Made by a program: the position numbers and the translations under genes. The notes beneath the pieces are model-generated. The model was not told the origin of the DNA, made no database searches, and worked only from the letters and a program-made list of their open reading frames with translations. 42,131 nt of DNA from Eubacterium sp. (GTDB lineage Bacteria > Bacillota > Clostridia > Lachnospirales > Lachnospiraceae). The stretch is from positions 1 through 42,131 of the forward strand of contig JAEFAB010000070.1 of NCBI GenBank assembly GCA_016292095.1, read 5' to 3'. This document shows positions 106-35,595 of this stretch, piece by piece. The number at the start of each line of letters is the position of its first letter. Position 1 is the stretch's first letter.

Positions 106-771
106 CGAGCAGGTGAGGAAGGAAGCACTGAAGCAACAACGAAGGAAGAAACAACCAAGGAAGAAACTACAAAAGAAGAAACCACAACAGAAGTTGAAAC
201 TACAACAGAAGAAGTAAACGGAACTGTTAAGGTTGAAGGATACCAGATTAGTACAAGATACGAAGGATTCAGAGTGATCGGATCTGTTGAACCAAAGGTT
301 AACGGAAAGAGAGTTCAGAAGTTTGGTACAGTTTATTCAATCAAGACATTGAATGGAAAGACTGATACAGGTATCACAGAAGATGATCTTGTAGTTGGAT
401 CAACCCACGAATATGTAGCAGCTTATGAATGTACATCTGCAGGTATTATGAATACTCAGTTTGGAGATTCTGAAACAGCTACATACTACGCAATGACAAT
501 GAAGTTTGGTCGTAAGAATGTGAATGCATTCGTAACAGAGTATTGTGTAAGAACATACGCATTGTTAGAAGATGGAACATATGTATACAGTGATGCAGTT
601 AACTTTACAGTATTCAACATTGCTAAGGCAGCATATGACAGAAATCTTATGACAAGCGAAGCAGGACACAATTATCTGTATGACACAATCATTAAGGTAG
701 TTGACCCAAGCTATGAAAGAAAAGATTTTCACTGGCCCAGCACCTATGCCCCAGTAGATGATCTGGATTAA
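73..771 (+). CDS. Secreted protein, C-terminal fragment with shared C-terminal domain
   Basis: This is only the 3' end of a gene. The frame stays open to base 1 and the GTG at 73 lies in the suspect poly-G tract, so it is not a credible start. What survives is a Thr/Glu/Lys linker with repeated EETTK units (about residues 19-47), followed by the ~170-aa C-terminal domain that closes six other proteins in this window: it opens at GYQIST, has a central VRTYALLEDGTYVYSD-like segment, then HNYLYD, and ends with a KDFHW motif. The closest match by eye is the C-terminus of the adjacent GH16 protein. The missing N-terminal part was probably a signal peptide plus a catalytic or binding region (inference from the neighbours). 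An intrinsic terminator follows directly. The domain's function is unknown. Confidence 0.75.
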   Translation: MEGGGVTTTGRRAGEEGSTEATTKEETTKEETTKEETTTEVETTTEEVNGTVKVEGYQISTRYEGFRVIGSVEPKVNGKRVQKFGTVYSIKTLNGKTDTGITEDDLVVGSTHEYVAAYECTSAGIMNTQFGDSETATYYAMTMKFGRKNVNAFVTEYCVRTYALLEDGTYVYSDAVNFTVFNIAKAAYDRNLMTSEAGHNYLYDTIIKVVDPSYERKDFHWPSTYAPVDDLD

Positions 772-784
772 GAAACAAATAATT

Positions 785-817
785 GAGTGGAGACCGAAAG
801 GTCTCCGCTTTTTTTTG
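785..817 (+). terminator. Intrinsic terminator after the first gene
   Basis: Stem GGAGACC / GGTCTCC (789-795 with 800-806) with a GAAA loop, extendable outward by wobble pairs, followed by a run of eight T. It lies 17 bases after the stop codon. Confidence 0.9.
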
Positions 818-870
818 TTGTGAAAAAAGGTGTAAATTTTTTAGAAAAGGGTGTAAAATTTTAAGCTCGA

Positions 871-899
871 TTGTTTGAAAAATTTCAATATGATAGGAT
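871..899 (+). promoter_or_regulatory. Candidate sigma-A promoter for the GH16-cotH pair
   Basis: TTGTTT at 871-876 and TAGGAT at 894-899 are separated by 17 bases, about 55 bases before the GH16 start codon. The match is moderate. Just upstream, GGTGTAAA occurs at 829 and again at 850, exactly 21 bp apart, a possible operator pair. Confidence 0.45.
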
Positions 900-953
900 T
901 GTGGAATGTAGGAAAACTTTGTCAGGAGAAAAAAAGAAAGAGGAGAAGATGTT

Positions 954-3773
954 ATGTTGAGAAAAGGAATTGCATATGTAACAGCCGCAGCTCTTGTGGT
1001 GACTTCTATTGTCTTTACACCTGTTAAAAAGCAGACGGTACAGGCAGAAGTAGCTGGCCCGGGAGAATCCGGATGGAACTTGGTATGGAGTGATGAATTT
1101 AATGGAAATGCATTGGATACCAGCACTTGGATTCGTGAAACAGGTGGTACTGACGGCGGCGGTTGGGGAAACAACGAACTGCAGTATTACACAAACAGAA
1201 CGGACAACAGTTATGTCTCTGATGGGACATTAAAAATGATTGCTAAAAGAGAAAACTATAATGGATGTAGATTTACATCTGCAAGATTGAAAACAGCAGG
1301 AAGAAAGTCCTTTAAATATGGAAAGATGGAAGCCAGAATCAGAGTATTAGGTGGAAATCAGGATGGTGTATGGCCTGCATTTTGGATGATGGGTGATGAC
1401 GGATTGCCTTGGCCAAGATGTGGAGAATTGGATATTATGGAACATGCCAACGGACGTGATTATGTAGAAGGAACACTTCATTGGGGTGAAAACGGAACGG
1501 ATGCTCATGTATTCTGGGGAAGTTATTCAAACCGAGACTATTATTATTTTAATGATAATGCGAACAATGGTATTACTGCATGGCATACCTATGGTGTAAC
1601 ATGGGATGAAAGTTCTGTAAAATGGTATGTGGACGGAAATGTTTATCTTACAGGATACTTTGGAGCTAATAATGCGTATGCATTTCAGAAGGCGCATTAC
1701 TTCCTTCTAAACTTGGCATTAGGAAGTAACAATACACCGTATACCGGTGGTGTTGCACCAAACAACAGCTTCCAATCAGCAACAATGGAAGTAGATTATG
1801 TACGTGCATATTCTTATAATGGTTCCAACAGTGGTGGAGGTTCAACACCGGCCGGATACACAGCTTGTGGAAAAGGAAACTGGAATGACGTTGGAGCATG
1901 GAGATATTACGTAGGTGATGGAGCAGCAGCATATAAGGGTGGAAACTCTATCAACGATTTCTCAGTTTATGTGCAGACAAAACCAACTTGGGACTGGGGT
2001 ATTCAGGCAAAACCTGAAATCTCATTAGAAGCAAATACAACATATAACTATACAATTAATGCAACATCCAGCAAGGCAACAGGTGCCTTGGTTGTAAACC
2101 GTGACCTTGGCGGAAACGGCGTTGGAACAATCGTTAATAAGGGAATCATTGCAGGAAACAATACATTCAGCGGTTCCTTTACAACCGGTGGAACAGCCGG
2201 AGAAGAACTGGTATTTGACCTTGCAAATATTGATTCGGATACAACTTTTAGCATTACAAATGTATCGATTACAAAACAGTCAAACAATAACCCGACAACT
2301 GCTGAACCTACCACAGCACAGCCAACAACAGAACAGATTGTTGGTACTTGGGAAGCAGTTCCAAACAGTACAGGATTGACATATTATACAGGAACAACAG
2401 CAACAGTTGTTAACGTACAGAATCCCGGATGGACAGAAGGAAATTACTCCGGAGACGGAATTTACATGAACGTTCCGGAAGCAATTAACTCTATTACATT
2501 GAACGGAAATAATGCCGGTGTCCATGTAGAAGGTGCCGGTGCATTGGTATACCTGTCAGCATTGAAGACAGGAGACAATACAGTATCCATCACCTATGGT
2601 GGAAACAAGACAACTACAGTACAGATTAAAAAGGCAGCAGCAGAAGTAACAACACAGGAACCAACGACAGAAAAGCCTGCTGATGGATTTACAGCAGTGC
2701 CAGCATCAGATTTGCAGGTAGGAGATTTCACTCTTTATGCTGCAAACGGCTCTTGGACTACAGGAAAAATGTCTTACAAAGGAACCGGAAATAACATGGA
2801 CCTTACAGTAAGAGTAGATGAGGCCAGCGGTGAAGTAGGAAGCTGGGGGCTTCAGATGAAATATCCTGTAACTGGATTAGACCCAACAAAGACTTACGAT
2901 GTTGCAGTAAAATATGAGTCAACAAAAGCAGGAACCATTCTTGCAAAGATTGAAGAAGGATCCGGTACCGATGGAAACCAGCAGAACGTGACAACAGCAG
3001 TAGGAACGACAAACTATACCACTTCTGTTAGTGGGGAAAGTCAGTATAAGGTAGTTCTCGAACTTTCCGGAATGCCAAACGGAACAGAATTGAAGATGAA
3101 ATCCATCACCTTCACACCGAGAGAAGTTCCGACTACAGCAGAACCAACAACTGCAGAACCGACTACAGCAGAACCAACAACTGCTGAGCCGACAACAGAA
3201 GAACCTACTACAGTAGATCCAAAGACCAAAGTAAAAATCAGAGGATATCAGATTAGTACAAAGCATGAAGGATATAGAGTTGTAGGTTCCGTAGAACCGA
3301 CAATCAACGGAAAGAACGTTGAATCTTACGGTGTAGTTTACGCAATTAAGAACCTTTTTGGAACAACAGATACAGACGTTACCGATGCAGATATGGTGGT
3401 TGATTCAACACATCCATATGTAAAAGCTTTTGAAGCAAATGATTCTGCAACATTGAATGCACAGTATGGCGATTCAACAACAGCGATTAACTTTGCTCAG
3501 GTAATGAAGTTTGGTAGAAAGAATGTTAAGGCATTCAACACCGTTTATGCCACAAGAGTTTATGCTCGCCTGGAAGACGGAACCTATGTATACAGTGACG
3601 TGCAGCAGTCTTCTGTATTCGCTATTGCAAAGAAAGTTTATGATAACGGATTGATGTCAACTTATGCAGCACACAATTATCTGTATGAAGAAATTTTGAA
3701 AGTGGTAGATCCAAGCTATGAAGCTGTGGATTTTGATTGGAAGGAAAAAACCGTTGATCCTGGAATGTTTTAG
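954..3773 (+). CDS. Secreted GH16 endo-beta-1,3-glucanase (laminarinase type), multi-modular
   Basis: Predicted to cut beta-1,3- or mixed-linkage beta-glucans outside the cell. The N-terminus is a signal peptide (about 1-32, ending VQAEV). The GH16 domain spans about 38-290 and keeps the signature E158-L-D160-I-M-E163, giving nucleophile and acid/base glutamates. It is followed by a carbohydrate-binding-like beta-sandwich (about 300-443), a PTTAE linker, a small beta module of unknown type (about 466-565), a second linker, a second binding-like module (about 585-720), a tandem PTTAE linker (721-757), and the shared C-terminal domain (758-930, ending VDFDW). The ATG at 954 has AGGAGA 7 bases upstream. 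The next cotH gene starts 41 bases after the stop with no terminator between, so the two are probably co-transcribed. GH16 assignment is firm; exact glucan specificity is inferred. Binding modules are judged by pattern only. Confidence 0.93.
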   Translation: MLRKGIAYVTAAALVVTSIVFTPVKKQTVQAEVAGPGESGWNLVWSDEFNGNALDTSTWIRETGGTDGGGWGNNELQYYTNRTDNSYVSDGTLKMIAKRENYNGCRFTSARLKTAGRKSFKYGKMEARIRVLGGNQDGVWPAFWMMGDDGLPWPRCGELDIMEHANGRDYVEGTLHWGENGTDAHVFWGSYSNRDYYYFNDNANNGITAWHTYGVTWDESSVKWYVDGNVYLTGYFGANNAYAFQKAHYFLLNLALGSNNTPYTGGVAPNNSFQSATMEVDYVRAYSYNGSNSGGGSTPAGYTACGKGNWNDVGAWRYYVGDGAAAYKGGNSINDFSVYVQTKPTWDWGIQAKPEISLEANTTYNYTINATSSKATGALVVNRDLGGNGVGTIVNKGIIAGNNTFSGSFTTGGTAGEELVFDLANIDSDTTFSITNVSITKQSNNNPTTAEPTTAQPTTEQIVGTWEAVPNSTGLTYYTGTTATVVNVQNPGWTEGNYSGDGIYMNVPEAINSITLNGNNAGVHVEGAGALVYLSALKTGDNTVSITYGGNKTTTVQIKKAAAEVTTQEPTTEKPADGFTAVPASDLQVGDFTLYAANGSWTTGKMSYKGTGNNMDLTVRVDEASGEVGSWGLQMKYPVTGLDPTKTYDVAVKYESTKAGTILAKIEEGSGTDGNQQNVTTAVGTTNYTTSVSGESQYKVVLELSGMPNGTELKMKSITFTPREVPTTAEPTTAEPTTAEPTTAEPTTEEPTTVDPKTKVKIRGYQISTKHEGYRVVGSVEPTINGKNVESYGVVYAIKNLFGTTDTDVTDADMVVDSTHPYVKAFEANDSATLNAQYGDSTTAINFAQVMKFGRKNVKAFNTVYATRVYARLEDGTYVYSDVQQSSVFAIAKKVYDNGLMSTYAAHNYLYEEILKVVDPSYEAVDFDWKEKTVDPGMF
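3127..3220 (+). repeat. Tandem repeat encoding PTTAE linker
   Basis: About six copies of a 15-base unit encode PTTAE/PTTEE between the second binding module and the C-terminal domain of the GH16 protein. Such Thr/Pro/Glu tracts are flexible extracellular linkers. Units alternate in synonymous codons, giving a visible 30-base higher-order period. Confidence 0.85.
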
Positions 3774-3813
3774 AAACTAAAAGGATTGTTTATTGAAAGT
3801 GGGAGATTATTAT

Positions 3814-6480
3814 ATGTTAAGAAAGGGATTATCATTGCTGTTAGTAATGGCACTGGTGGTAGTAACAATGCACTACGTACCAAAGTCTGTTACAGCAGCG
3901 CAAAGCGACGCTCAGTCTTATGACTGGAGTGGCGTGAACTTTATTGGTTGTGATGGAACTGCCGGAGATTATGTAAACAAAGTAAAAGTAGCTGTTGTGA
4001 ACAATAGCGGCTTACAGGACGTTGTAAACATTCAGACCGGACAGGCAACACAGCCGGGCATTTATGTTACATTTAAATCAGCAGAATTTGCCAGCTTTAC
4101 CTTAAACGATGAAACCTTCACATCTTATGATGTGCAGGGTGCCGGCGTTTGGATTCATATAGCGGCAATTACAGAACAGTATAATGACCTGATTGTAAAA
4201 AAAGGAAACGGCGAAGTGATGGCTGAACTCTATATTTACAAAGCAGGTTCTGAGGAAGAATCTTCTAGTGAAGCAACTTCAGAGGAAGAATCAACCACAG
4301 AAGCGGTTACGGAAGAACCGGGACTTGCTGCACCAACCGGTGTGGCAGCATACAACTTCTACGGAAACGGAAAAGGTTATCAAGTATGCTTTAAGGAAAC
4401 TGCCGATGCAGTATCATACAACATTTATATGGATAATTCCGCAGTGCTTGCTACAGTGGCAGGAACAGACGAATTTATCAATGCATCTGTATTTGCAACA
4501 TATGCAGACAATGCATTGCACAAACTCTATGTTCAGGCTGTAGATGCAGAAGGAAATACGTCCGAAAAGGTATCCGCAAAAGTAAGAGTAACAACATTAA
4601 CTAATTCATCTGCAGATCCAACAGATGTTTCTCGTGTATACGTGGTAACAAACTCAGATGATGAAATTATAAAAGCATCAAAGACGAAAGCATCTTTAAC
4701 TGTTGTCAGTGGTGACAATGCAATCAAGAATACTTTTGAAGGCGGTAGTATTAAACTTCGTGGAAATTCCACATCGATTGCTGACAAGAAAGCATACAAT
4801 ATTTCATTTAACAGCAAACAGAAAGTTATGGATGGTGCCGCAAAAGGAAAGAAATGGTGTCTTCTTGCCAATGCCTATGAAAAGACATTGATGAGAAATA
4901 AACTTGCCATGGATTTCGGTAGAACTTTAGGCGGCGTGGCAGCACCGGAAGAGCATTACGTGGATTTATACATTGATGGCGTTCTGATGGGAAGTTATGT
5001 CATGAGTGAACCGGCAGACAACGGTCGTTCTGGTGTGGCTTACAATGAAGATGGAAAAGATGTTTTAATTGAATTAGAACAGAATGATAAAGATGAATCT
5101 GCTGATGGAGCAGCATACTATACTACATCCAGACTTGGAAGACGTTTTGCCTGTGAAGATTTGGAAGATGAAGTAAAAGCACTTTATGAATCAGGCGTAA
5201 CATCATCTGGCGCCATTGCAGCAAACCTTCGTCAGAATTATCCGAAGTTTAGTAATATGATTACTACCTTGGATAACTTTGAAACGGCATTGGTAAATAC
5301 TTCATCCGATGCAGTGTTTGACTATATTGACGTGGATTCTTTCGTCAGCATGTACATTGTTAATGAATTATTCCAGACGGTAGATTTCGGATACAGCTCT
5401 GTAAAATTCTACATTACTTATGACGAAAATGATGCACCGACAATTCATGCAGGTCCGCTTTGGGACTTTGACTTGTCATCCGGAAACTCCGGAGATGCAA
5501 GCTGCAGAACTTATAACACATTCCGTGGACAGAATGTTAATCCATGGTTTAATTACCTGATGAAGAACAATACCTTCAAGAACAGAGTATTGGCCAAGTA
5601 TGAAGCAATGCAGCCAACGATTCAGAATCTCTATCGTGATAATGCATTGGGACTTTCAAAGATTCATCAGAACGAAGCGTTGATGGAAGCTTCCAGAATC
5701 AGAAACTACAGCACAGCAGGTTGGTCTGTAAATGTAGCGGATGGTGCTGAATACAGAGTATATCGTTATAGCTATAGTACTGACAGCCCATATAACACAT
5801 ATACTTACGACCAGCATATTTCCTATTTGGAAAACTGGTTAAAGAACAGAAATGAATGGATTTGTACCCAGTGGGGTATCGACTATACCGCATACGAAAG
5901 CGAGTATAATTCAGATTCAACAATTACTTCCGATTTAGGTATCACAGGATACCAGATGACTTCCACATACAATGGGGAAGACGGAAGAATGGGACTTCGA
6001 GTAATCTTCCAGGTAGAAGAAACCGTAAACGGACAGACACCTGTAGAAACCGGTCTGGTATATGGATTGGACTATGATGGTTCCATTACAATGGATGATG
6101 TATTGGTTGGCTCAGAGAGTCAGTTTGTTGCATCCTTTGCAGCACCGAGAGAAAACAAGATGACAAAGCAGATGGGTGATTCTGCTACTGCATCTTACTA
6201 CTCAATGGTAATGAACACAGGACAGGACAATGTTCGACCTGCAGCGTTTACCACAACCTATTTTGTACGTGCATATGCAAAGATGAGCGACGGTTCTTAT
6301 GTGTACAGCAACACTTGTGCATACACTGTATTCAGAGTGGCAAACTTCCTGTATCGCAATACATTATCAAACAATTTATCAACACATAACTACTTGTATT
6401 CGAAAATATTAGCTTACGTAGATCCTACTTACAAAGAAGTAGAATATGATTGGAGCAAAGTAGTAGCAAAATTCTCATAA
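3814..6480 (+). CDS. Secreted CotH-kinase-family protein (paralogue 1)
   Basis: A CotH-family protein of 888 aa. CotH of Bacillus is an atypical protein kinase that phosphorylates spore-coat proteins; here the domain sits on a secreted multi-domain protein, so substrate and role are unknown. Visible order: signal peptide (1-29, ending VTAAQ), beta-rich module of unknown family (about 33-145), Glu/Ser/Thr linker, fibronectin-III-like domain (about 170-265), CotH domain (about 270-690) with the R316-G-N-S-T loop, a KKWCLLANAYEKTLMRN segment and the putative metal-binding W-D551-F-D553, then the shared C-terminal domain (about 706-885, ending VEYDW). I chose ATG 3814 because GGGAGA lies 8 bases upstream; a TTG start at 3793 has no suitable site. 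It follows the GH16 gene closely and is ended by a strong terminator. Confidence in the CotH family is high; kinase activity is inferred. Confidence 0.9.
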   Translation: MLRKGLSLLLVMALVVVTMHYVPKSVTAAQSDAQSYDWSGVNFIGCDGTAGDYVNKVKVAVVNNSGLQDVVNIQTGQATQPGIYVTFKSAEFASFTLNDETFTSYDVQGAGVWIHIAAITEQYNDLIVKKGNGEVMAELYIYKAGSEEESSSEATSEEESTTEAVTEEPGLAAPTGVAAYNFYGNGKGYQVCFKETADAVSYNIYMDNSAVLATVAGTDEFINASVFATYADNALHKLYVQAVDAEGNTSEKVSAKVRVTTLTNSSADPTDVSRVYVVTNSDDEIIKASKTKASLTVVSGDNAIKNTFEGGSIKLRGNSTSIADKKAYNISFNSKQKVMDGAAKGKKWCLLANAYEKTLMRNKLAMDFGRTLGGVAAPEEHYVDLYIDGVLMGSYVMSEPADNGRSGVAYNEDGKDVLIELEQNDKDESADGAAYYTTSRLGRRFACEDLEDEVKALYESGVTSSGAIAANLRQNYPKFSNMITTLDNFETALVNTSSDAVFDYIDVDSFVSMYIVNELFQTVDFGYSSVKFYITYDENDAPTIHAGPLWDFDLSSGNSGDASCRTYNTFRGQNVNPWFNYLMKNNTFKNRVLAKYEAMQPTIQNLYRDNALGLSKIHQNEALMEASRIRNYSTAGWSVNVADGAEYRVYRYSYSTDSPYNTYTYDQHISYLENWLKNRNEWICTQWGIDYTAYESEYNSDSTITSDLGITGYQMTSTYNGEDGRMGLRVIFQVEETVNGQTPVETGLVYGLDYDGSITMDDVLVGSESQFVASFAAPRENKMTKQMGDSATASYYSMVMNTGQDNVRPAAFTTTYFVRAYAKMSDGSYVYSNTCAYTVFRVANFLYRNTLSNNLSTHNYLYSKILAYVDPTYKEVEYDWSKVVAKFS

Positions 6481-6593: not shown

Positions 6594-6640
6594 CACTCCT
6601 ATTGAAAGGGTCGGAGAAAAATGAATATGGAGGAGAAGAA

Positions 6641-9310
6641 ATGAGAAAAGTACTCAGAAAAACGCTGTCAGGAATGATGGCTGTTGTTTTGATGTCCACA
6701 AGTATTACATTCTATGGCATTAAGACAGCAAACGCAGATGCGATTAACCTGGAAGGGGTTACCTGCACACAGAACATTGTAAACGGAGAAGATGCAGGAA
6801 TTATTGGAATGATTACTTCCGACACAGTAACTATTGATGGGGTGGAATATAACAACTATGCCCATTACACGGGACTTCGAGCAAGTGCAACTACAGAGTT
6901 GCAGGAAGCTGATAAAGCAATTGACAGGAAACTTAACACACGTTGGGAATCTATTCAAGGATTGGACAATCAGGACCTGACAGTTTATTTGGGAAACAGT
7001 TATGCAGTTAAGGGATTGGCAATTTACTGGGAAGGTGCTTCTGCAGCAGATTATGTACTTCAGGTATCTGATGACGGAATCAATTATCAGGATGTAACAG
7101 AGGTGCAGACTACATTTCAGAAGCGTTCAGAACAACTGACATTTTCTTCTGAAATCAACACCCGTTATATTCGTATTAGTTGTAAAACAAGAACAACAAC
7201 TTACGGATTTTCCATTTATGAAATGGGAATTTTCGGAAGCGATGCGCAGAAAGAAGAAATCAAACAATTAGCAAATCTGAAAGTAGAAAACTACTTTGCA
7301 TATTCAGGAAAGTATATGATTTACTTTAACGAAGCAACCGGTGCTGCAAGTTACAACGTATATATTGATGACAGTAAAACACCAATCAAGAATATTGCTT
7401 CATCCGGAAGTTATATCGAAGCAAAAGACTTGCAGGGAGTAGCTGCAGGAACCCATACAATGCGTGTGACAACCGTGGATGCAGAAGGAACAGAAAACGG
7501 TGAAATCACCACAACCTTTAAGGTAACAACAGATGAGGGAACTTACACAGAAGTACCTCAGATTTATATTTACACCGAAAAGACAATTGAAACAGAATAT
7601 CATCAGGATAAAGATGTTACAGTAACTGTAGTGGACAAAAAAGGCGGTAAGAACAAAGATTTGACTGCTTCTGACTGTAATATCAAGATTCGTGGTAACA
7701 CAACAGCCGGAGCGCCGAAAAAGCCTTATAACATTAAGTTCAACAAGAAACAGTCCGTACTTGGTATGGGAAAAGCAAAGAAGTGGTGTCTTCTTGCAAA
7801 CTCTTTTGATAAGTCCCTGCTTCGTAACTACCTTGCTTACAACTTCGGTAGAGAAAACGGCGTAACTTATACAAACAACAACAGATTCGTAGAAGTTTAC
7901 GTAAACGGTGTGTTCCAGGGGAACTATTTGCTGACAGAAGCAGTGGAAGCCAAGAAGGAACGTGTCAATGTTGATGCTTATGTGGCAGACAGCAATGATG
8001 TGTTATTGGAATTAGGACACAGAGATTATGAAACAGATGTGGATCATTTTACAACAAGTGTTTTGGGAACAACATTTGACATCAATGATCCGGAACGTGG
8101 TGATGATCTAACAGATGAACAGGTAGATACAAAGATTGCCAATGTCAAAGCCTACCTGGAAGAATTCGAGACTGTATTGAAAACACAGGATTATGATGAT
8201 ATTCTTCAGTACATTGACGAAGATACATTTGTAGACTTCTATATTGTAAATGAATTATTCAAGAACGTAGACTTTAACTTTAGCTCAACAAGATTTTACA
8301 TTAAGGGTGACAAAATCTATGCAGGCCCAATGTGGGATTTGGATTTATCCAGTGGTAACTGCAAGAGTACAATGTATCACGATTATTACGGGGATGATGG
8401 TCTTAGCTACACAGGATATTACTGTACCGGCATGAAGTGGTATAGTGAATTGTTGAAGAATCCATACTTTATGGAAAAAGTAAAAGAAAGATATGCGGAA
8501 CTTCAGTACAAAATTCAGAGCCTCTACAGAGAAGATTCCGTAGAAGAAATCGGTATCGAAAAGGCTGTGGAAACTTATGGCGCATCCTTTGAAAGAAATT
8601 ATAAAGCTAAGGTGAATCTTGGTGCCGGTTGGGAACTGACTAACGAAGATGGATACAGTTATGCAGCTGAGTCAGGATGGAGAACATGGCAGGAACCAAT
8701 TGAGTTCTTAAGAACATGGCTTGATAACAGAAATGCTTGGCTTTGCCAGCAGTGGGGAATCAATGCTGAAGAAGCATACGAAGAAACCGATCCTGGTACA
8801 GTGAAAGTGACTATTAACGGTAGCCAGATCAGTACCGTTTACGAAGGATATCGTGTGGTTTATTCCATCAACAATCCAACAAAAGCAACAAGAGTTGGCT
8901 TGATTTACGGACTTAGTGACTACGCATCAGATAGCGATATGGTACTGGACAGCACAGCTCCAACTGTTTATGCATACGAAAACAGTGAAGAAGGAACGTT
9001 ATCTGTGAACTTTAGTAAGAGTAAAAAAGGTCAGAGTTATGCAATGGTAATGAAAAACATTAAGAATGTCAATTTCTATACTGCACCAATCAGCGTTAGA
9101 GCATACGCAGTGCAGGAAGACGGAACTGTTGTTTACAGCGATGTAAAACATATGACTGTTTACAATGTAGCTGATTACTTATATCAGAACTTAAAGATGA
9201 ATAATCTTTCCGGACATAACTATTTATTTACAGACATTTTATCCTATGTAAATCCGAACTATGAACAGAAAGATTTCAATTGGTCAGATGCTTTAGCACC
9301 AATGAACTAA
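6641..9310 (+). CDS. Secreted CotH-kinase-family protein with F5/8 type C domain (paralogue 2)
   Basis: Second CotH protein, 889 aa. Order: signal peptide (about 1-30), F5/8 type C (discoidin-like) binding domain (about 60-205) with the AIDRKLNTRWES core, fibronectin-III-like domain (about 215-300), CotH domain (about 305-715) with R351-G-N-T-T and W-D566-L-D568, and the shared C-terminal domain (about 722-885, ending KDFNW). The F5/8C segment closely resembles those in the two longer GH128 glucanases of this window, so enzymes and CotH proteins may bind the same ligand (inference). The start is ATG 6641, preceded by GGAGGAGAAGAA; an in-frame TTG at 6602 gives no signal-peptide-like N-terminus. 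It has its own promoter and terminator. Substrate unknown; a structural or scaffold role instead of catalysis is possible. Confidence 0.9.
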   Translation: MRKVLRKTLSGMMAVVLMSTSITFYGIKTANADAINLEGVTCTQNIVNGEDAGIIGMITSDTVTIDGVEYNNYAHYTGLRASATTELQEADKAIDRKLNTRWESIQGLDNQDLTVYLGNSYAVKGLAIYWEGASAADYVLQVSDDGINYQDVTEVQTTFQKRSEQLTFSSEINTRYIRISCKTRTTTYGFSIYEMGIFGSDAQKEEIKQLANLKVENYFAYSGKYMIYFNEATGAASYNVYIDDSKTPIKNIASSGSYIEAKDLQGVAAGTHTMRVTTVDAEGTENGEITTTFKVTTDEGTYTEVPQIYIYTEKTIETEYHQDKDVTVTVVDKKGGKNKDLTASDCNIKIRGNTTAGAPKKPYNIKFNKKQSVLGMGKAKKWCLLANSFDKSLLRNYLAYNFGRENGVTYTNNNRFVEVYVNGVFQGNYLLTEAVEAKKERVNVDAYVADSNDVLLELGHRDYETDVDHFTTSVLGTTFDINDPERGDDLTDEQVDTKIANVKAYLEEFETVLKTQDYDDILQYIDEDTFVDFYIVNELFKNVDFNFSSTRFYIKGDKIYAGPMWDLDLSSGNCKSTMYHDYYGDDGLSYTGYYCTGMKWYSELLKNPYFMEKVKERYAELQYKIQSLYREDSVEEIGIEKAVETYGASFERNYKAKVNLGAGWELTNEDGYSYAAESGWRTWQEPIEFLRTWLDNRNAWLCQQWGINAEEAYEETDPGTVKVTINGSQISTVYEGYRVVYSINNPTKATRVGLIYGLSDYASDSDMVLDSTAPTVYAYENSEEGTLSVNFSKSKKGQSYAMVMKNIKNVNFYTAPISVRAYAVQEDGTVVYSDVKHMTVYNVADYLYQNLKMNNLSGHNYLFTDILSYVNPNYEQKDFNWSDALAPMN

Positions 9311-9688: not shown

Positions 9689-9751
9689 AAAGGAAACTGG
9701 GAAGAAACTGAAGTGTATGGTCTAAATAATAAAAAGAAAGGAAAAGAAAGT

Positions 9752-12700
9752 ATGAAAGGAACGATGAAAAAAATTATTTCCGTAGTATTGGCTCTGGTTA
9801 TGGTGATAACCGGGTTACAGTATAGTCCGAGTACTACGGTAAAGGCGATGGAAATCACGACGGCTGGTTATACCTATTCTATTAGCGGAGTAAGCGGAAC
9901 CATTGTGGGATTTACAAACAATGGTAATAATAATAATGCTTTTAACTTTGCATGGAATGGGGATTATGCAACCACTGTAGATGCTACGATTTCAGGAGAC
10001 GGATTGGCGTCTACGCCTTTAAAAAGTGGTATCACAAATGGTGGAAGTATTACGATTGCTGAAATTACAGCGATTGTAAATACAGAAGGGACATATACCA
10101 TTTCATTTGTTGGAAACGGAGGAAACAGTAATCCAAATAATGATACAACGGCGACAGCTACCTTAACAATCGCTGAGGCAGCTGCACCGGAACCGATAGT
10201 GGATGGAACTGAATTGATTCCGGTAGCTAAGCAGAATAGCGGAATACTTAGTATTCCAACATATGAAGGTGGAAATCCTTACGACAATGAATACAAAGTT
10301 GAAAATTTGAATATCGTGGAAAATGTATGGTACGTTGCAAAATATACCATTACATCTGATGTTCAGAAATGGTTTGAGTTAAGACTACAGAATTCATCAG
10401 GTTGGTCAGATTATAGTAGAAAGGGCGTTCCGGCTCAGCAGGTTCAGGTTAACGCTGGAGAGACTGTTACTCAGACATTAGTGTTCCAGGCAAATCAGAG
10501 TACAAATGCAGGTGTATTTGATATCTGCATGGGAAAGATTAATAATGTTACTGCCAATGCTGCAACAGTTCAGATTACCAATATCAGCTTGAAAACATAT
10601 AGTACTCAGGCTGCAGCAGAAGCTGCAACAGCTGCAGAAATAACTACACCTATTGAAGAAACTTCGTCAGTAGAAACATCTACAGAGGAACCTACATTGA
10701 ATTGGCAGACAGATGCAAATTTGACAGCTTACTTTGGTAGTGGAGCAAGATATGCATATGTAACATCAAATCCTGGAAATGGTGATGACAAGTTCCTAGG
10801 TGGTACTTTCACTATTCATGCAGATAAAATCAATATTACTGCAGGCGCACATGGTGTAGGTGGTACTGGATCTTACATCAAATTAAATGGAACACAGGTG
10901 GATGAAACATCAGCAGATTATGCATTGAATCGTAATTGTATGTTTTCACAATTCCATTATGGAATAAATACGATACAGTTCATTGGTAACTATACTGCTG
11001 GTAATTCAAATCTTAATGTTGAATTTACGTTGTATGTAGATGTTCCGGATCGCGCCGGCAACTTTATGATTGATGATTACTCTGCATATACAGGAAAATA
11101 TATTGCAAAATTTGATAATATTGGAAATACTATTTCCAAGTATGATGTATATGTAGATGGCGTTAAGACAGATATTACATTGTCTGGTAGTGGAGATTTC
11201 TTTACTGTTGCCGATTTGGAAGCGGAAGAAATTTCTCCGGGCTCACACACTGTTACAATTACAGGTGAGTATGCAAACGGAAATGAAACAATTGCTTCTG
11301 TAGACGCAACAATTAATGTTCCAGCATCTGCAGGAACCAATGGGGATATTGCACAGATTTACATTCAGACAGATAATACATCTTTATCGCCGATAGAACA
11401 GGAAAGTAAGACAGTAATTGATAAGGTTAATGTAGGAAAACAAGCAGCTGCAATCACAGTAATTGATAAAGATGGTGTACAAAATCCATATAAAGTATGT
11501 GAAGATGCAGCAAAGACTACTGTTAAGGTGCGTGGAAACTCTACGGCCGGAGCGGTAAAGAAAGCATATAACATTACGTTCAATTCTGGAAGAGATTTGT
11601 TTGGGTTAGATGGCTCAGCATCACCAGCAAAGAAGTGGAGTCTTCTTGCAAATGCGTTTGACAAATCCTTAATTCGTAATTATTTAGGATTTGATATTGC
11701 ACATCATGTATGGGCTGATAATGCTACGCCTGACTATAACAGCCAATGTAAATTCGTTGATTTGTATTTTAACGGAGTTTATATGGGTAATTACTTGTTG
11801 ATTGAATCTGTGGAAACCGGAGCAGGACGTGTTAATATTGATTCGCAGAATGCATCAACATACAATACAGAGGCGTTGCTCGAATTAGAAGAAATTCATG
11901 CAATCGGTGAGGAAGCAAATTTCACAACAAGTCGTTATGAACAGACATTTATTTTTGGATCACCGGAAACAGCTGATGATATTGGTGGCTCAACCAGCAT
12001 GGTTGGCGAACAAACGTTCTTTGAAAAGAAACAAGCGGATGTGGCTGATATATTTAATGATTTTGAAGATGACTTATATGCAGCGGAACAGGATCCTACA
12101 AATGAGACGAAGTGGAATGCAGTTTTAGCTGACATTGATTTAACATCCTTTGTTAAGTTTTACTTAGTCAGTGAAATTATGACTACAAAGGACTTTAATC
12201 AGAGTTCTACAAGATTTTATGTTCACAATGGAAAGATTTATGGCGGACCACTTTGGGATATGGATTACTCCAGTGATAACAACTTAGATAATCCAGTGTA
12301 TACAAGAGAATACCAGAGAAGAATGCCATGGTTTGACCATTTGATGAACATTCCTGCATTCAAGACAGCAGTGGTAAATGAATACAGATCAATTCGCCCA
12401 TATGTAATGAGCTTGTATGCAAATAATGGTGGTATTGATACATTGGTAACGAGTATTGCTGGTTCTGCAAGTAGAAACTATTCTGCAAGAAATAATGGTG
12501 GAGCAGGATGGTCGATTAATACAGCGGATACTGGTGATTCATACGGATATATGCAGATGATTACTAATGGTGTTGCAGGAGCGACTGCTTACACAAGTTA
12601 CAATGCTGCAAATGATTCTACCAGTGCTGTAGCTCAGGTTAAGAATTATTTCCAAGAGAGAATAGCAGGTTTAGATGAAACATGGGATGTTTCTTATGAT

Positions 12701-15700
12701 GCAACAATTGATACTACCGGCGGTGAGGTGGTAGTATCTTGGGATGCAATGGAAGGCACAACAGGATATCGCCTTACATTCTCAGGAAAATATACAGCGC
12801 CGGGAGCACCGGAACAAGCACTGGTACAGCAGATTGATGACGATTACACAGCGCAGACTGTTGATGTACCGGCAGGAACAACAAGCTATAACTTAACAAC
12901 AAATGGTTATGAAGTTGAAGACGGAACAGATATTACAGTTGCATATAGTACAGATAGTGGAAGTACTTATACGACACTGGATACAGTGACTTATAATGCA
13001 CCAGTACCTGAACCGGAAGTTGCAACCATTTCTCTTAATGCTAGTGCAGTAAATTATAGAATCAGTGCAACTTGGGCTAACCCAACTGGAACAGCACATG
13101 CATATGCATACCTTAACAGCGTTGCACCAGGAAAGAGTGTAATTGCAGCGAATAATTGGGATTTCAATACTCAAGCTGAACAACCTATGACGGGAGTTGA
13201 TACAGTCTCAAGAACAAGAGATAGTTCTGTTACTGTTGAATATGGAAATACATATACAATTATTGTTGAAGCTTATGATTCAGAAGATAATTTAATTGGA
13301 AGAGGTGAAGCAGAGGTTACTATTCCAAATGCATCACAAGAAGAAATTCTTAAAAATCGTGTAGGACAGTTGGATAACTTGGCACGTAATAAAACACCGA
13401 TGGTAGGTTCTAATTCTGGAGCTGCAAATAATTTGGTAGACGGAAACACTGGAAATAGATGGCAAGCAGATAAAGCTGTTGATAATACGTATTTTGGCGT
13501 AGATTTGGGAGCAGTATATTCAATAGACCGTGTATTAGTGTGTTGGGAGAACAGTTATGCGACTGCTTATACCGTTCAGGTTTCAACAGATGGAGAAAGT
13601 TATACAACAGTTGATACAGTATCTGGGGTGAGTGGAAACAATCCTGATAAATTGAGTACATTTGAACCGATATATGCCAGATATGTAAAGATAGTTGCTA
13701 CCACGTTAAGTGGTAATGCTACAGCTTATGGAATGTCTGCATATGAACTTGCAGTATTTGGAGGAGATATCACACCAGGGGTAAATGATTCGGGATGGGT
13801 ACAGGTACCTAATTCTTCACATTATTGGTACTATGTTCCAAATAACTATTCGTTTAATGTTAACACAGCTGGTGCAACAATGCAGGGAATGGAAGAAAGG
13901 ATTTATTTTCCATTCTATGGTCAAATAAATACAACTCCTAAGTCAGCAACGTTAGGAAGTACAGATTTAACAAACACAGGAAATGCTCAAGTTTGGCTTC
14001 CTACAAGTTTGATCGCATCAAACAATACAGTTTATAAGTTGACGTTCGTTGACAATGATGATGAAAAAGCAGTTGTCTATTTTAAGAAACAGACAGAGGC
14101 GAATTATACACCAACAGGTATTGCAATTACTCAGGCAGGTGTAATGACGTGGACACCAAGTGCTGATGCAACTACCGCAGGAGCAACATATTCAGTAACA
14201 TTTAATGGTTCTACAACAAATAATATTTCAACAGGAACCACAACTCTTGATTTAACAGGAGTTGCATATGGAGAATATAATGTTGTATTAAAAACATATG
14301 TTGCAGGAAGTGAAGTGGATTCGCAGACAGTTTCCTTCAAGTATAAGGATCCGGAAGTAGTAGATTCTACACTTCATAAGACAGGCAATAATCAGATTGC
14401 ATGGGAAAAGGAACGTTGTGATTACTTATCTTGGGATGCAGTAGCTGGACATACCTATGCAGTTTATGTAGATGGTAAACTTTGGGAAGATGAAATTACA
14501 GAAACTTCTTATAAACTTCCGGCTTATGCATTAGTAGATACTGAAAATGGTACATTGGATAAAAATGATCAGGCTCAGACTAGAGGAACACATTCAGTTT
14601 CTGTAGTTGCTATTCCTACAGAAGGAACAGCACCGGCATTATTTGAAAATGTAAATTCGAAGAAAGTAATTGGAACGGACAACTTTACATTAAACTTAAA
14701 CTATATTTATGGTGATGGAACAGATATTTGGAATGATACAGGTGTTCCAAGTAAGTGGAACTTTACCATTACTCCGGAAGATGGAGAAACATCCGGATTA
14801 AAGGCTACATACAATAACGATGGCTCCGTAAGTATTACAAATATTGAAAGTGCAGCTGAATGGAAGGCAAAAGCAGCTATTTACGATAGACATCTGAACG
14901 TTGAAGACGTAGGTGGATTAGTTAATATTTCATTTGATTTAACTATTACAGATGGAGATATTATCAATTCTATAAGAGAAAATCCTGGAAGTTTAAAAAT
15001 AGGCATTAAATGTGTTGCTGATGAAATTGCTAATGATAATGGCAATTATACATATGCAGGTAAACTTTACGGATTAACACAAGATCAGATAAATGCTGGT
15101 TTACGTTGGGTATATCAGGATCCAAGAAATGTAGATACTGAACCAGGATATGATGCAACTTTAGATGGTCCGGCTGCAGAGTACCCATTCGTATATGATG
15201 AGCAAACAGGTACAGCGGTTCTTCATTACTCATTTACATTTACTCCAGTTTTGGATACATATGATTTGCTTTTTGACTTGGAAGGATTAGAAGGTGCCAG
15301 TATGACACTTTCTGATGCAGTAGCAAAAGACGTTTATAAGGTTACAGAGGCAATTGGCTCGCCAATTCCAAACGGATCAGATATTACAGATAGTAGCATT
15401 CAGGTAGGTTGGAATAGTAATGTTCCGGATCATCTGTCTGGAAATTATTACTACAAGGTATATATTGACGATACTTTAGAAAGTGCCAATGCTACACTCA
15501 ATGCATCTTATTCAGGATATAATGCAGGCGAGCATACTGTGAAGGTAGAAAGTTACTATGGTCTCCCGGCTGGACCTGGACAGGAAGAAACCGGAGTGAA
15601 GACTGGAGAAGCAACTGCGACGGTTAATATCGTTCAGGAAGAAAAACCGAACCTTGTTATATCTGATATCAGTATTCCGGGTGGAGTACATTACATAGGT

Positions 15701-20276: not shown

Positions 20277-21920
20277 ATGGGAAATGGAACGAGAAAAATA
20301 ATAGCAGTCATGTGTGCTATTGCTTTGGTAATAAGCTCCGTGACGATATTAAAAAAGGAAAATGTAATTGCCGATACTAATTATGCAGCATTGACGTATT
20401 CAACAATTGCTTGTAATGGAGCAGAAGGTCTTTCGTTGGATTATTGTGTAGTAAGTAACAATTTGCTAGGCTATGGTGATGTATGGTATGGAGATGGTGG
20501 AATTACATTTCAGATTGTCTTTTCTGGAGCAGTACTAGCAGAGAATTATACAATTACTGTTAATGGAGAGGAACCGGCAACAGGTGTCGTCTCTTTGAAG
20601 GGAAATGGATTAGTAAAGTTAAACCCAACTGTTTTGGCAGATAATAATTATTACGATATTCTTATCACACGAACAGATGAAGCACAGACCTTGAATATTG
20701 TGTTAAAAAAAGGGACGCCTTCAGGTAGTGGTGAGACTATTTCGTCTGGAACGACAACGACAACAACTGCACCAGAACCTACAACAGATGCACAGGGATA
20801 TACAAAGGTTGTTAATGGTTGGATTACAGTAGGAAATTTCCAACTGTTTCCAGGGTGGACTGCTCGAACTCACTGGTATTTGGGAACAGGTGCCTATAAT
20901 GATATGAAGGTTAAACTTCAAGGGACAAGTTCAGCTGAATATGATTCGCAGATTGGAATTAACGTGGCTGGGTTAACGAATGGAACGCAGTATGATTACG
21001 AAGTAGTATTTTCATCAAATACTAGCGGAAATATTTATATGCAGATTCCGGGGATTGTCCGTGTTCCAACTTCTGGAACATCTAGTGTTACCGCTGGTAC
21101 AAATACTTTTACGGGAACATTTACAGCAGGAACTAATCCTGCACATGGACAAATAATGTTATTCCCAGAAGGTATGCCGGATGGTACAATTCTTGATTTT
21201 ACAAGTGTAACTGTTACAGAACATGTTGATACACCTGATCCGGATGACCGTGTAAAAACTTGTACTACATGTGAAGATTTAGTTGTAGAAGGATTCCAGA
21301 TTAATACAAATAATGCTAAACGCGGAACTGGCTTTAGAATGATTGCAAAAGTTCCGAATGCTACAACAATCGTTGATGATGAAGGTGTTAGTCATACGGT
21401 AGCTCATTTTGGAACTGTTTACACATTGGATACGAATAATACTGGAGTTGATGCTAATAATACATATGATAAGTATGACACCATTTTAGATGATACAGGT
21501 GTGTCTGACAAAGCGTGGGAATTCGAAGGCGTGAATAATGGTAACGACACTGTAGGGTTTGCATGTACAGCAGAAGCTTTTTTGCCAAAATGGAAACCGG
21601 AAGATACAACACATCGGTACTATGCCATGACAATGTATGATATAGATAATGCGATTTTAGAACATACAATTTTTGTAAGACCATATTTCGTAGATACAGC
21701 TGGAAATATTGTTTATGCGGCAAACACATATGTTACATCTATGGCAAAAGTTGCAGATGACTTATATAAAAATAGTAAGATGCCAAATGCAACAGCACAT
21801 GAATACTTGTATTCACATATTTTAGGTCATGCGGTATTTACACAGCATAGTGCTTTCCATAGAACTACAAGATTAGAATATGGATATGGTAGTGGAGTAT
21901 ATGTACCTACACAACCGTAA
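20277..21920 (+). CDS. Secreted protein with binding-like module and shared C-terminal domain
   Basis: 547 aa, no catalytic domain recognised. A signal peptide (about 1-32, ending VIADT) is followed by a beta-rich module of unknown type (about 35-145), a Thr/Pro linker (about 147-168), a module (about 172-312) resembling the second binding module of the GH16 protein (VGNFQLF...GTGAYNDMKVKL against VGDFTLY...GTGNNMDLTVRV), and a divergent shared C-terminal domain (about 333-530) with GFQINT, a VRPYFVDTAGNIVY segment, HEYLY and LEYGYG. Start ATG 20277 has GAAAGGAG 6 bases upstream. It lies directly behind the 53-aa peptide gene and a terminator follows. It may be a glucan-binding or surface-display protein without enzyme activity (inference). 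Confidence 0.85.
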   Translation: MGNGTRKIIAVMCAIALVISSVTILKKENVIADTNYAALTYSTIACNGAEGLSLDYCVVSNNLLGYGDVWYGDGGITFQIVFSGAVLAENYTITVNGEEPATGVVSLKGNGLVKLNPTVLADNNYYDILITRTDEAQTLNIVLKKGTPSGSGETISSGTTTTTTAPEPTTDAQGYTKVVNGWITVGNFQLFPGWTARTHWYLGTGAYNDMKVKLQGTSSAEYDSQIGINVAGLTNGTQYDYEVVFSSNTSGNIYMQIPGIVRVPTSGTSSVTAGTNTFTGTFTAGTNPAHGQIMLFPEGMPDGTILDFTSVTVTEHVDTPDPDDRVKTCTTCEDLVVEGFQINTNNAKRGTGFRMIAKVPNATTIVDDEGVSHTVAHFGTVYTLDTNNTGVDANNTYDKYDTILDDTGVSDKAWEFEGVNNGNDTVGFACTAEAFLPKWKPEDTTHRYYAMTMYDIDNAILEHTIFVRPYFVDTAGNIVYAANTYVTSMAKVADDLYKNSKMPNATAHEYLYSHILGHAVFTQHSAFHRTTRLEYGYGSGVYVPTQP

Positions 21921-29526: not shown

Positions 29527-29566
29527 AAATTTTAAAATTGTTCATACTATGTTTGAGGTGATAAGT

Positions 29567-30422: not shown

Positions 30423-30456
30423 ACAACAGGCAACAGTTAACAACCTGTTGTTTATT
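30423..30456 (+). terminator. Terminator-like hairpin after spoIIQ-like gene
   Basis: ACAACAGG / CCTGTTGT stem with a 13-base loop, followed by TTATTAT; a modest T tract. Confidence 0.6.
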
Positions 30457-30463
30457 ATAGATG

Positions 30464-30533
30464 GACTACTTCACTGTAATAATTATAGGAGCAAAGCTTT
30501 GTTCCTACCGGTTGCAGTGAGGTAGTCTTTTTT
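30464..30533 (+). terminator. Large nested intrinsic terminator
   Basis: GACTACTTCACTG (30464-30476) pairs with CAGTGAGGTAGTC (30515-30527), one G-U, and encloses a second hairpin TAGGA-CAAAGCTTTG-TCCTA-like; seven T follow. It separates the sporulation pair from the next gene. Confidence 0.85.
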
Positions 30534-30553
30534 GCACATGATAAATAATAACA

Positions 30554-30581
30554 TTGCAGGTATTAGAGGGATTATTATAGA
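30554..30581 (+). promoter_or_regulatory. Weak candidate promoter of the acidic-protein gene
   Basis: TTGCAG (30554-30559), 16-base spacer, TATAGA (30576-30581). Some promoter is needed here after the strong terminator, but the match is only moderate. Confidence 0.35.
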
Positions 30582-30624
30582 TATACTTATGAAAAAATGA
30601 TAAAATATCAAAGGGAGGTTGGTT

Positions 30625-33416
<2,792 letters not shown>

Positions 33417-33420
33417 AGGG

Positions 33421-35595
33421 ATGAAGTCAAGAAGATTATTGGCGGGAGTAATGGCTTTGATTTTAGTGCTTGCCATGATTCCGGTTACTATGGGAGTAAA
33501 AGAAGTACATGCGGCAGAAGCAACACAAATCACGGCACCAATCGACCAGTCATTGGTAGCCGCCGGCTATGTTCAGATCGCCTGGAAGGCAGCAAGCGGT
33601 TCCGTAAGAAACTATGAAGTATATATTGATAACACAAAGGTGGTAACAACCCAAAACACGGAATACGAGTACTATACCACCAGCGTGAAGCGTTTTGATG
33701 TGTATGTTAAAACGGTTTATACCAACGGCAGTTGGGCAAATTCAGAAAGCAGTTCCTTCTTTGTGACGAAAAAAGGATTGGCAGTTAATGAAGTAATGGG
33801 GAAAAATCTGTCTCCATTGGAAATGAATATAGGTTGGTACTATACCTGGGGAACTTCGGAATTTTCACATTCAACCTATCGTTATGCGCAATTCGTTCCA
33901 ATGCAGTGGGGGAAAGGAAACGAAACAAATAACATCAATAATGCGGTAAGTAAAGGATACCGATATTTTCTTGGATACAATGAGCCGGATATGAGTGGCG
34001 ATGTTGGCGGCAGCAATATGACCGTGGAAACGGCATTAAACAATTGGCCGAATTTAACCGGAAAAGATATTCACTTAGGTTCACCGGCGCCGGCATTGTG
34101 TCCGGCATGGAGCAACGGAAGCTGGTTCAGAAGTTTTATGAACGGGGTTGACCAAGATTCCTTTGAATTTATTCCGTTACATTGCTATTACGGTCAATAT
34201 GGCGGTGCCCAGGCGGCAAACACATTTCTGACAGAAGTGGTGGATGGAACTTACAACATGTATCATAAGCCAATCTGGATTACGGAATTTGCCATTAGTG
34301 GCTGGGGATACAATGATGCAAACGGAAAGCAGAAAACAAAAGAATTTATGGAAGCGGTGATTCGGGGATTGAATGAGAGAAGCTATGTGGAACGTTATTC
34401 CTGGTTCTCGTTTAATACTACCGATGGAAATAATGGTGCGTCTGCACTTTGGACCAACGCTACAGGCGAACTGACAGAGTTGGGACAAATGTATGTAAGT
34501 CTTGGAAATCCGGAAGGGTACGATTACCACCGTACTCTTGAAAACGAGCCGTATTCCATTGCAATTTCAAGCAGAAATGACCTTCTTCCGAACAGCGTAA
34601 CGATTAAGGATGTTGTTTATGAAGACCAGGCGGCAAAGAACGGCGTGACCGTTACAGCATCTTCGGAACTTGGAAATAATAAGGCAGTCGCTGCCATTGA
34701 TAATAGCATTTCTTCCCGTTGGGAGTCTGTTCAGGGGGTGGATCCCCAGTCTCTGACAATTGATTTGGGAGAAACGAGAAAGATTAAACAAGTGGACATT
34801 GTCTGGGAAGGTGCTTCGGCAGAACGGTATTCTATTGATGTTTCCACAGATGGTGTGAATTATGAATCGATTGCTTCGGTAAGAAGTAGTCAGGGGGCAA
34901 GATGGGATTGTATTACTCTAGCAAAAATGCAGGAAGCAAGATTTGTTAAAATTAATGGAACAAGTAGAACGACACCGTATGGTTATTCCATTTATGACCT
35001 TGCAGTGTACGGAAGCGAAGTGGAGGAACCGACAACAGAAGAACCGACGACAGTGGAACCGAAAACACAGGTTCAAATGTTGGGGTATCAGCTCAGTACT
35101 ACGAAAGAAGGCTACCGTGTTATTGGCGCTGTGGAACCGCAGATTGGTGGGAAGCGTGTAAAGTCCTATGGGGTTGTTTATGCCATCAGAAATCTATTCG
35201 GAACAGAGTCCACAGGAATTCAAGAAGAAGATATGGTGGTAGGTTCTTCAAATACATATATCAGAAGTTTTGAAGCCACACCTCAGGCAACTTTGAACAC
35301 GCGATATTCTGAATCTTCTACCGCAATTAATTTTGCACAGTTAATGTCTTTTGGAAGAAAGAATGCAAAGGCATTTAATACAGTTTATGCCACAAGAGTC
35401 TATGCGGAATTAGAAGATGGAACTTATGTCTATAGCAATATGATGCAAACCTCTGTTGCGTACCTTGCAGATTACCTGTATAGCAGACGAATGATGAAAA
35501 ATTATACAGCACATAACTATCTGTATGAGCAAATCCTCAAAGTAGTAAATCCGAACTATGAGGAAATAGCTTTTGAGGAATCATCAATGCCGTAA
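33421..35595 (+). CDS. Secreted GH128 beta-1,3-glucanase with F5/8C and shared C-terminal domain
   Basis: 724 aa. Signal peptide (about 1-35, ending VHAAEA), an Ig/Fn3-like domain (about 38-125), a GH128 (Glyco_hydro_cc) catalytic domain (about 130-370), an F5/8 type C domain (about 390-532), a short EEPTTEEPTT linker, and the shared C-terminal domain (about 547-718). Putative catalytic residues are acid/base E188 in GYNEPD and nucleophile E289 in WITEFAISGWG; GH128 enzymes hydrolyse beta-1,3-glucans. ATG 33421 uses AGAGGAG located across the glpK stop codon. The C-terminal domain keeps HNYLYEQILKVVNPNYE, but the final IAFEES lacks the usual Trp. It is the only one of the three GH128 proteins here with this domain, linking the glucanases to the CotH block 25 kb away. 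Confidence 0.92.
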   Translation: MKSRRLLAGVMALILVLAMIPVTMGVKEVHAAEATQITAPIDQSLVAAGYVQIAWKAASGSVRNYEVYIDNTKVVTTQNTEYEYYTTSVKRFDVYVKTVYTNGSWANSESSSFFVTKKGLAVNEVMGKNLSPLEMNIGWYYTWGTSEFSHSTYRYAQFVPMQWGKGNETNNINNAVSKGYRYFLGYNEPDMSGDVGGSNMTVETALNNWPNLTGKDIHLGSPAPALCPAWSNGSWFRSFMNGVDQDSFEFIPLHCYYGQYGGAQAANTFLTEVVDGTYNMYHKPIWITEFAISGWGYNDANGKQKTKEFMEAVIRGLNERSYVERYSWFSFNTTDGNNGASALWTNATGELTELGQMYVSLGNPEGYDYHRTLENEPYSIAISSRNDLLPNSVTIKDVVYEDQAAKNGVTVTASSELGNNKAVAAIDNSISSRWESVQGVDPQSLTIDLGETRKIKQVDIVWEGASAERYSIDVSTDGVNYESIASVRSSQGARWDCITLAKMQEARFVKINGTSRTTPYGYSIYDLAVYGSEVEEPTTEEPTTVEPKTQVQMLGYQLSTTKEGYRVIGAVEPQIGGKRVKSYGVVYAIRNLFGTESTGIQEEDMVVGSSNTYIRSFEATPQATLNTRYSESSTAINFAQLMSFGRKNAKAFNTVYATRVYAELEDGTYVYSNMMQTSVAYLADYLYSRRMMKNYTAHNYLYEQILKVVNPNYEEIAFEESSMP

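Follow-up and report, generated by a model that had tools for sequence, protein, structure and literature searches.

A module with a predicted fibronectin-III-like fold on secreted proteins of one Lachnospiraceae genus: a probable attachment module

Introduction

What is the function of a single domain that closes seven otherwise different proteins encoded on one bacterial contig? The question is raised by contig JAEFAB010000070.1 of Eubacterium sp. (family Lachnospiraceae, assembly GCA_016292095.1), which was analysed at its full length of 42,131 bases (hereafter the window, contig C17) and belongs to a 2.30 Mb draft genome of 74 contigs that is 91% complete. The original prediction, made from the window alone, described the domain as a C-terminal sorting, secretion or surface-retention signal of no named family. 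In the current study the domain (hereafter the module) was sought in the source genome and in its relatives. It is probably a non-catalytic attachment module, as judged from sequence comparison and a structural model, and the explanation favoured here, at a probability of about 0.4, is that it binds a target-side component of the insoluble material under digestion.

Recurrence and position of the module

All seven window copies (Table 1) lie on the forward strand and each closes its own open reading frame (ORF), at coordinates within a few bases of those predicted. Their full-length alignment has 16 invariant columns and 29–57% identity to the first copy, and the predicted landmarks (G-x-Q, GxVY or GLIY, VRxYAxLEDGTYVYS, HNYLY and an acidic-[FY]-x-W end) are visible. 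A profile built from any six copies recovered the seventh with E-values from 4e-70 to 2e-21, the latter for a protein of 547 amino acids (aa) (database size set to 2000), which excludes chance likeness. The copy of the glycoside hydrolase (GH) family 16 protein, used alone as query, found the other window copies except that of the 547-aa protein. The module is about 170 residues long; one correction to the prediction is that the copy of a giant CotH protein is longer by about 110 residues, which come ahead of its terminal F/Y-x-W segment.

The seven copies proved to be a small part of a larger set. An iterated profile search of the window and 22 further regions gave at least 37 copies in 36 proteins of the source genome. 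A single-copy query found 37 stretches, one of them a short fragment; the count used here includes the copy at window position 21279, missed by that query, and leaves out a 32-residue fragment (C72:5169-5264), a locus-end duplicate of C71:62825 and weak stretches with E above 1e-5. The fragment lies about 100 bases past a full copy, resembles the C-terminal helix region of the module and looks like a decayed partial duplicate.

The module is the last domain in 33 of the 36 proteins; in 32 it lies at most 29 residues from the stop, and the giant CotH protein is the 33rd. The claim that it is always last stands for the window (7/7) and does not extend to the genome. In the protein at C33:22381-25605 the module comes right after the signal peptide and is followed by further domains, including F5/8C; in that at C57:38875-40839 it has the same place ahead of a part with no Pfam match; and that at C6:12576-19280 has two tandem internal copies (residues 1210–1570 of 2235). 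Internal or cytoplasmic positions, which according to the original prediction would count against it if frequent, were thus found rarely (3/36), and all three proteins have signal-peptide-like N-termini. One 230-aa protein (C72:70400-71089) consists of a signal peptide and the module alone. Loci of other genomes contain 56 copies in 55 ORFs, and wherever a stop is visible (51/51 ORFs) the copy ends at most 10 residues before it, one ORF having a terminal tandem.

The prediction that the carrier proteins are secreted was supported by a crude signal-peptide score of our own, which was passed by 31 of the 33 carriers with a complete N-terminus, compared with 51 of 132 control ORFs from the same regions. 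A linker rich in T, E and P directly precedes the module in 21 of the 36 carriers. Unlike LPXTG sortase substrates, none of the 36 has an [LVI]PxTG motif in its last 60 residues. Regarding a link to mobile elements, no plasmid match was obtained and a viral contig was not confirmed.

Strong matches to the module are restricted to one genus. Among 98 genomes it was found in 21, all of this genus (21/23 members including the source, 0/75 others). In four members (G000, G004, G007 and G009) the copies number about 35 or more, these counts being lower bounds, compared with 0 to 13 in the other members. A set of 392 genomes of the order gave three genus members and two weak matches (23–25 bits), and 391 genomes of the class gave the source genome and one genome with weak matches (23–27 bits). 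Of 37 loci in public genomes, 36 are titled Lachnospiraceae, Eubacterium or Eubacteriaceae, and the 37th, from Oscillospiraceae, is weak (20 bits).

The two weak matches of the order are members of a remote homologous domain (A6; L125/G346, L126/G340 and L196/G044, from a related genus), which aligned with the module over 154 columns (hhalign probability 95.6, E 1.1e-8, with a template of three sequences). A6 differs from the module in sitting in another kind of protein, presumably GH73-like; in L125 a long tail of collagen-like repeats comes after it, and no Pfam family was over its cut-off on the domain in L125 or L126. Kinship with a two-copy domain of an Oscillospiraceae protein (A7, L094) was rejected as too weak (probability 17).

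Predicted fold and sequence family

The absence of a named family was confirmed, since no model exceeded its cut-off on the module in Pfam (37 copies) or NCBIfam (seven window copies). Two Pfam candidates were rejected: CE2_N matched only the copy of CotH 2 (E 0.0013, 19.2 bits against a cut-off of 27.9) and DUF3419 only that of GH16 (1/37, E 0.0016, 18.2 bits against 28.2). The NCBIfam matches were at chance level (best E 0.016), with no type IX secretion system (T9SS) or sorting model among them. The fibronectin type III (fn3) family PF00041 was absent from the matches of all 37 copies (E up to 1), and a sequence search of the PDB found no relative of the module (best E 0.5).

A structure prediction, proposed earlier as a check, was carried out with AlphaFold2 on an alignment of 61 sequences from the window and from loci of other genomes, excluding duplicates and matches covering 140 or fewer profile positions. 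The GH16 copy was modelled as a fibronectin-III-like beta sandwich with two C-terminal helices (residues 129–138 and 145–159) at a mean predicted local distance difference test (pLDDT) score of 92.6 and a predicted template modelling (pTM) score of 0.84. The copy of the 547-aa protein, modelled separately, showed the same order of main strands and helices at lower confidence (79.1). In a Foldseek search of the PDB, the top match and the only one under 0.001 was the fn3 domain of Ihog (2ic2, E 4.3e-4); fn3 domains were also frequent among the matches that followed (CDO 3n1f, template modelling (TM) score 0.66 by target), and viral structures yielded no better match (best E 5.5e-4). An fn3 beta-sandwich fold is predicted for the module, although only part of the query is matched (TM about 0.4 by query). 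It resembles the fn3 domains (PF00041) of bacterial glycosidases in predicted fold and in its place beside catalytic domains, but differs from them in its length, in the two added helices and in the lack of a PF00041 match.

The module copies are diverse (23–61% identical to the GH16 copy), with a net charge from -10 to +5 across the 37. Four polar residues are near-invariant (Q7, R16, R109 and H148, in 35–36 of 37 copies), and D116 is retained in 29/37. The ratio of nonsynonymous to synonymous substitution rates (dN/dS) was 0.10–0.20 in 8 of 11 cross-species comparisons, indicating purifying selection; dS was saturated in the other three and about 1–2 even in these eight, and the comparisons share species and are therefore not independent. 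The F5/8C module beside it gave close values (0.13–0.16).

Partner domains and likely substrate

The domains that precede the module are unrelated to each other, as had been predicted. According to Pfam, the 36 carriers include GH18 (six), GH16, GH128-type and GH43 (two each), GH81, GH76 and GH115, as well as an alpha-1,3-glucanase (CatAgl, which we take to be GH87), an amylase with carbohydrate-binding module (CBM) family 26, and two pectate-lyase-like folds. Further carriers are a subtilase (S8), a peptidase (M64) and three CotH proteins; in addition there are one sub-threshold GDSL match and several proteins with no known family. About one third of the carriers belong to enzyme families acting on fungal cell walls.

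In the available text of PMC6520439, GH18, GH81, GH128, GH76 and GH87 are named as putatively fungal-wall-directed families. Because the partner families match this set, it is reasonable to suppose that the carrier species digests fungal or fungus-like walls. In a soil bacterium, a chitinase with a beta-glucan-binding module, i.e. targeted to the bulk fungal wall, is described in the accessible part of PMC10449523. An adjacent pair of proteins without the module, one GH18 and one GH16-like, is encoded at another locus (L135, G000:C52, 1003-5117); by eye, both share a different back half, with an N/S linker and ricin-like repeats.

Across 23 species of the genus, module copy number rises with the number of GH18 and CBM5/12 matches (Spearman 0.66 and 0.62), the module counts near 36 in high-copy species being lower bounds and relatedness being ignored. 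GH128-type matches also correlate with module copy number.

In a tree of the 37 copies, half of whose inner branches are weak, sister modules were found on unrelated folds, namely GH16 with GH128 (support 100/98) and GH81 with GH128 and the weak-GDSL protein (100/97). Modules of neighbouring genes were no closer to each other than expected by chance (p 0.45–0.64, and 0.94 outside the contig of the window, with GH18 neighbour pairs and the tandem pair left out), so local gene conversion is no general explanation of the sister pairs. Association of module subtype with substrate was significant on full tree distances (permutation p 0.0001–0.005; in two of the three pools six rows, long-branched or non-terminal, were omitted, as were the GH18 rows in one of the two). 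A strong association was rejected, as this first result weakened once terminal branches were dropped, and the indication that subtype follows substrate is only suggestive.

A lysine-rich tail in the same position

A lysine-rich fn3-like tail (A5) occupies the same C-terminal slot as the module, both in chitinases that are equivalent and in paralogues of the CotH and GH128-type proteins. It closes GH128-type proteins 2 and 3 of the window and CotH proteins on contigs C62 and C71. At window positions 33391-39278, three GH128-type proteins are adjacent, with the module on the first and the tail on the next two, and the same order was seen in L062 and L064. A triple-GH18 chitinase (equivalence judged by domain order, not by a tree) ends in the module in the source genome, G002, G006 and G016, and in the lysine-rich tail in G013 and G019; the copy of G011 is cut by the contig end. 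Pfam fn3 was not reported for the tails of the G013 and G019 chitinases, which match the profile of the other lysine-rich tails (leave-one-out E 2e-12 and 3e-21).

Tails were read at the loci at hand, i.e. for 34 of 65 CotH and 30 of 118 GH128 matches in the genus, and some assignments are weak (about 10–20 bits). Among the 34 CotH loci, 7 had the module, 16 the lysine-rich tail, 5 another strongly basic tail and 1 neither, while 5 ended before the stop. The 30 GH128-type loci comprised 2 with the module, 22 with the lysine-rich tail, 1 with another basic tail and 5 with neither. Module and tail occurred together in none of the 36 own module ORFs (37 when a duplicate is included) or the 55 related ones. 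The tail was found in all 23 genomes of the genus with 20 to 54 matches each (45 in the source genome). From these sequences, it looks like the common tail of the genus, which the module would replace on part of the secretome.

Unlike the module, which is near neutral, the tail is strongly basic (+27 to +38 over the last 90 residues at the CotH and GH128 loci). The two profiles are not detectably related, and the tail was rejected as a relative of the module (hhalign probability 2.8). A trade-off between their copy numbers was likewise rejected (Spearman +0.40, p 0.06).

In the literature, judged largely by titles and abstract openings, no publication was recognisably on this domain. Neither these publications nor the libraries searched showed the family, its expansion within a single genus or the way it alternates with the basic tail. 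The fold class is already known.

Function of the module

It is proposed that the fn3-like sandwich with its C-terminal helix pair is exported as part of secreted enzymes and would keep each enzyme at its working site. It may do so by binding a component of the insoluble substrate, probably a fungal-type cell wall glycan (the ligand being a guess), in the manner of a CBM. On this set of enzymes it would take the C-terminal place that in many other proteins of the genus belongs to the lysine-rich tail. Target-side binding is suggested by the independence of position, the enzyme partners, the linkers and the sister modules on enzymes with one expected substrate. Like CBM5/12, CBM6 and F5/8C, the module is accessory, is joined to many catalytic domains and is under constraint similar to that of F5/8C; unlike them, it fits no Pfam CBM family over the cut-off (37 copies), and its glycan binding is putative.

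Several observations weigh against substrate binding. Domains of the CBM5/12, CBM6, CBM26, ricin-type or F5/8C kind are already present in many carriers, and the proteases, CotH proteins and amylase are hard to fit with one glycan ligand. G019, a member of the genus, lacks the module despite having a multi-GH18 chitinase and CBM5/12. Without terminal branches the association of subtype with substrate gave p 0.18, and by node counts p 0.02; leaving out the pair on the window's own contig, these values became 0.38 and 0.08. Copy number of the module correlates about equally well with CotH (0.65) as with GH18, and none of the copy-number correlations reaches significance when the 19 low-copy species are taken by themselves.

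The closest competitor, only slightly less likely, is non-covalent retention of the enzymes by the module on the surface of the producing bacterium, through a wall polymer or a surface protein. The C-terminal slot is common to the module and the strongly basic tail, both at CotH loci and in the equivalent triple-GH18 chitinases, and a cargo mixed from proteases, CotH proteins, amylase and many glycosidases suits a common address. A precedent is the basic terminal domain of Fibrobacter cellulases, for which the available text of PMC6851124 discusses a role as surface anchor and gives an assignment to type IX secretion. However, the charge of the module is unlike that of the basic tail, so the ligand need not be common; sortases (seven matches) are available for surface anchoring, and N-terminal and internal copies exist. 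Surface retention, one of the roles named in the original prediction, is possible; binding to the substrate is slightly more likely than binding to the producer cell, and the choice is close.

It is improbable that the module docks to a partner protein and builds an extracellular enzyme complex. Its use on dozens of differing enzymes resembles that of dockerins, and the near-invariant Q7, R16, R109 and H148 could make an interface, but unlike a dockerin it gave no dockerin profile match, and no dockerin or cohesin family was reported on the 36 carriers or 37 copies, no genome-wide partner search having been made.

A purely structural role, in which the module would act as a cap or spacer without a specific ligand and would stabilise the C-terminus or shield it from proteases, is improbable to a similar degree. 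Domains of the fn3 type often act as spacers, and the sequence diversity of the module would fit such a role; the stand-alone copy with a signal peptide, the heavy use in one genus and the conserved polar residues argue against it.

The idea of a cleaved or recognised C-terminal secretion or sorting signal, for which the terminal position in 33/36 own proteins and 51/51 related ORFs speaks, is very improbable and was rejected in view of the predicted folded domain of about 170 residues, the signal-peptide-like N-termini at the opposite end, the N-terminal (C33, C57), internal (C6) and stand-alone (C72) copies, and the lack of an NCBIfam sorting model on the window copies. The T9SS C-terminal domain and the Fibrobacter basic terminal domain resemble the module as one C-terminal domain on many secreted rumen hydrolases, as far as the accessible part of PMC6851124 describes them; that source describes the T9SS domain for a bacterium with an outer membrane, whereas the module has no T9SS match and is not strictly C-terminal.

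Other features of the window

The features of the window are listed in Table 1. The truncated first protein is probably the tail of a GH81 protein, because the corresponding protein precedes GH16 in L058 and shares its back half with the GH81-bearing protein of L063 (both are N-terminally cut by the locus end). At positions 1-225, the first 40 or so residues of this truncated protein are rich in Gly, Arg and Glu by eye, perhaps through an assembly error at the contig end beside a repetitive T/E linker. A very acidic, D/E-rich protein is encoded at 30619-31911; it has a signal-peptide-like start, its end (by eye) consists of VPTGD, a hydrophobic stretch and a basic tail, and it is a likely sortase substrate.

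Table 1. Module copies, their carrier proteins and lysine-rich tails in the window
Feature	Coordinates	Strand	Basis
Module copy, end of truncated first protein	226..768	+	Alignment, leave-one-out profile
GH16 protein, 939 aa, C-terminal module	954..3773	+	ORF, Pfam
Module copy of GH16 protein (modelled with AlphaFold2)	3231..3770	+	Alignment, leave-one-out profile
CotH protein 1, C-terminal module	3793..6480	+	ORF, Pfam
Module copy of CotH 1	5935..6477	+	Alignment, leave-one-out profile
CotH protein 2 with F5/8-type C domain, C-terminal module	6602..9310	+	ORF, Pfam
Module copy of CotH 2	8807..9307	+	Alignment, leave-one-out profile
Giant CotH protein, 3427 aa (CotH, F5/8C, CARDB repeats), C-terminal module	9713..19996	+	ORF, Pfam
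Module copy of giant CotH; about 110 extra residues ahead of terminal F/Y-x-W segment	19088..19993	+	Alignment, leave-one-out profile
547-aa secreted protein with no assigned function, C-terminal module	20277..21920	+	ORF, Pfam
Module copy of 547-aa protein, most divergent in window	21279..21917	+	Alignment, separate model, leave-one-out profile
GH128-type protein 1 (Glyco_hydro_cc and F5/8C), C-terminal module	33391..35595	+	ORF, Pfam
Module copy of GH128-type protein 1	35071..35592	+	Alignment, leave-one-out profile
Lysine-rich fn3 domain closing GH128-type protein 2	37525..37818	+	Pfam fn3 over cut-off
Lysine-rich fn3-like domain closing GH128-type protein 3	38985..39275	+	Pfam fn3 under cut-off

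Significance

Should the module prove to be an attachment device, a single domain with some 170 residues would account for the placement of about 36 secreted proteins in a poorly known gut lineage, whose enzyme set suggests a specialist on fungal or fungus-like walls. The two terminal modules that alternate on equivalent enzymes offer a natural experiment on terminal-module function. There is also a practical point, namely that a domain occurring dozens of times per genome escapes the models of Pfam and NCBIfam. It may further be speculated, though this is doubtful, that the genus has evolved a genome-wide addressing system of its own. In it an fn3-derived module, placed in the C-terminal position that a basic tail often takes, would direct about three dozen proteins (hydrolases, proteases and CotH proteins) to a common target, for which fungal cell walls in the gut of herbivores are the most plausible candidate. 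If true, such a system would parallel the dockerins of cellulosomes and the C-terminal domains of type IX secretion, but in a Gram-positive organism and by non-covalent attachment.

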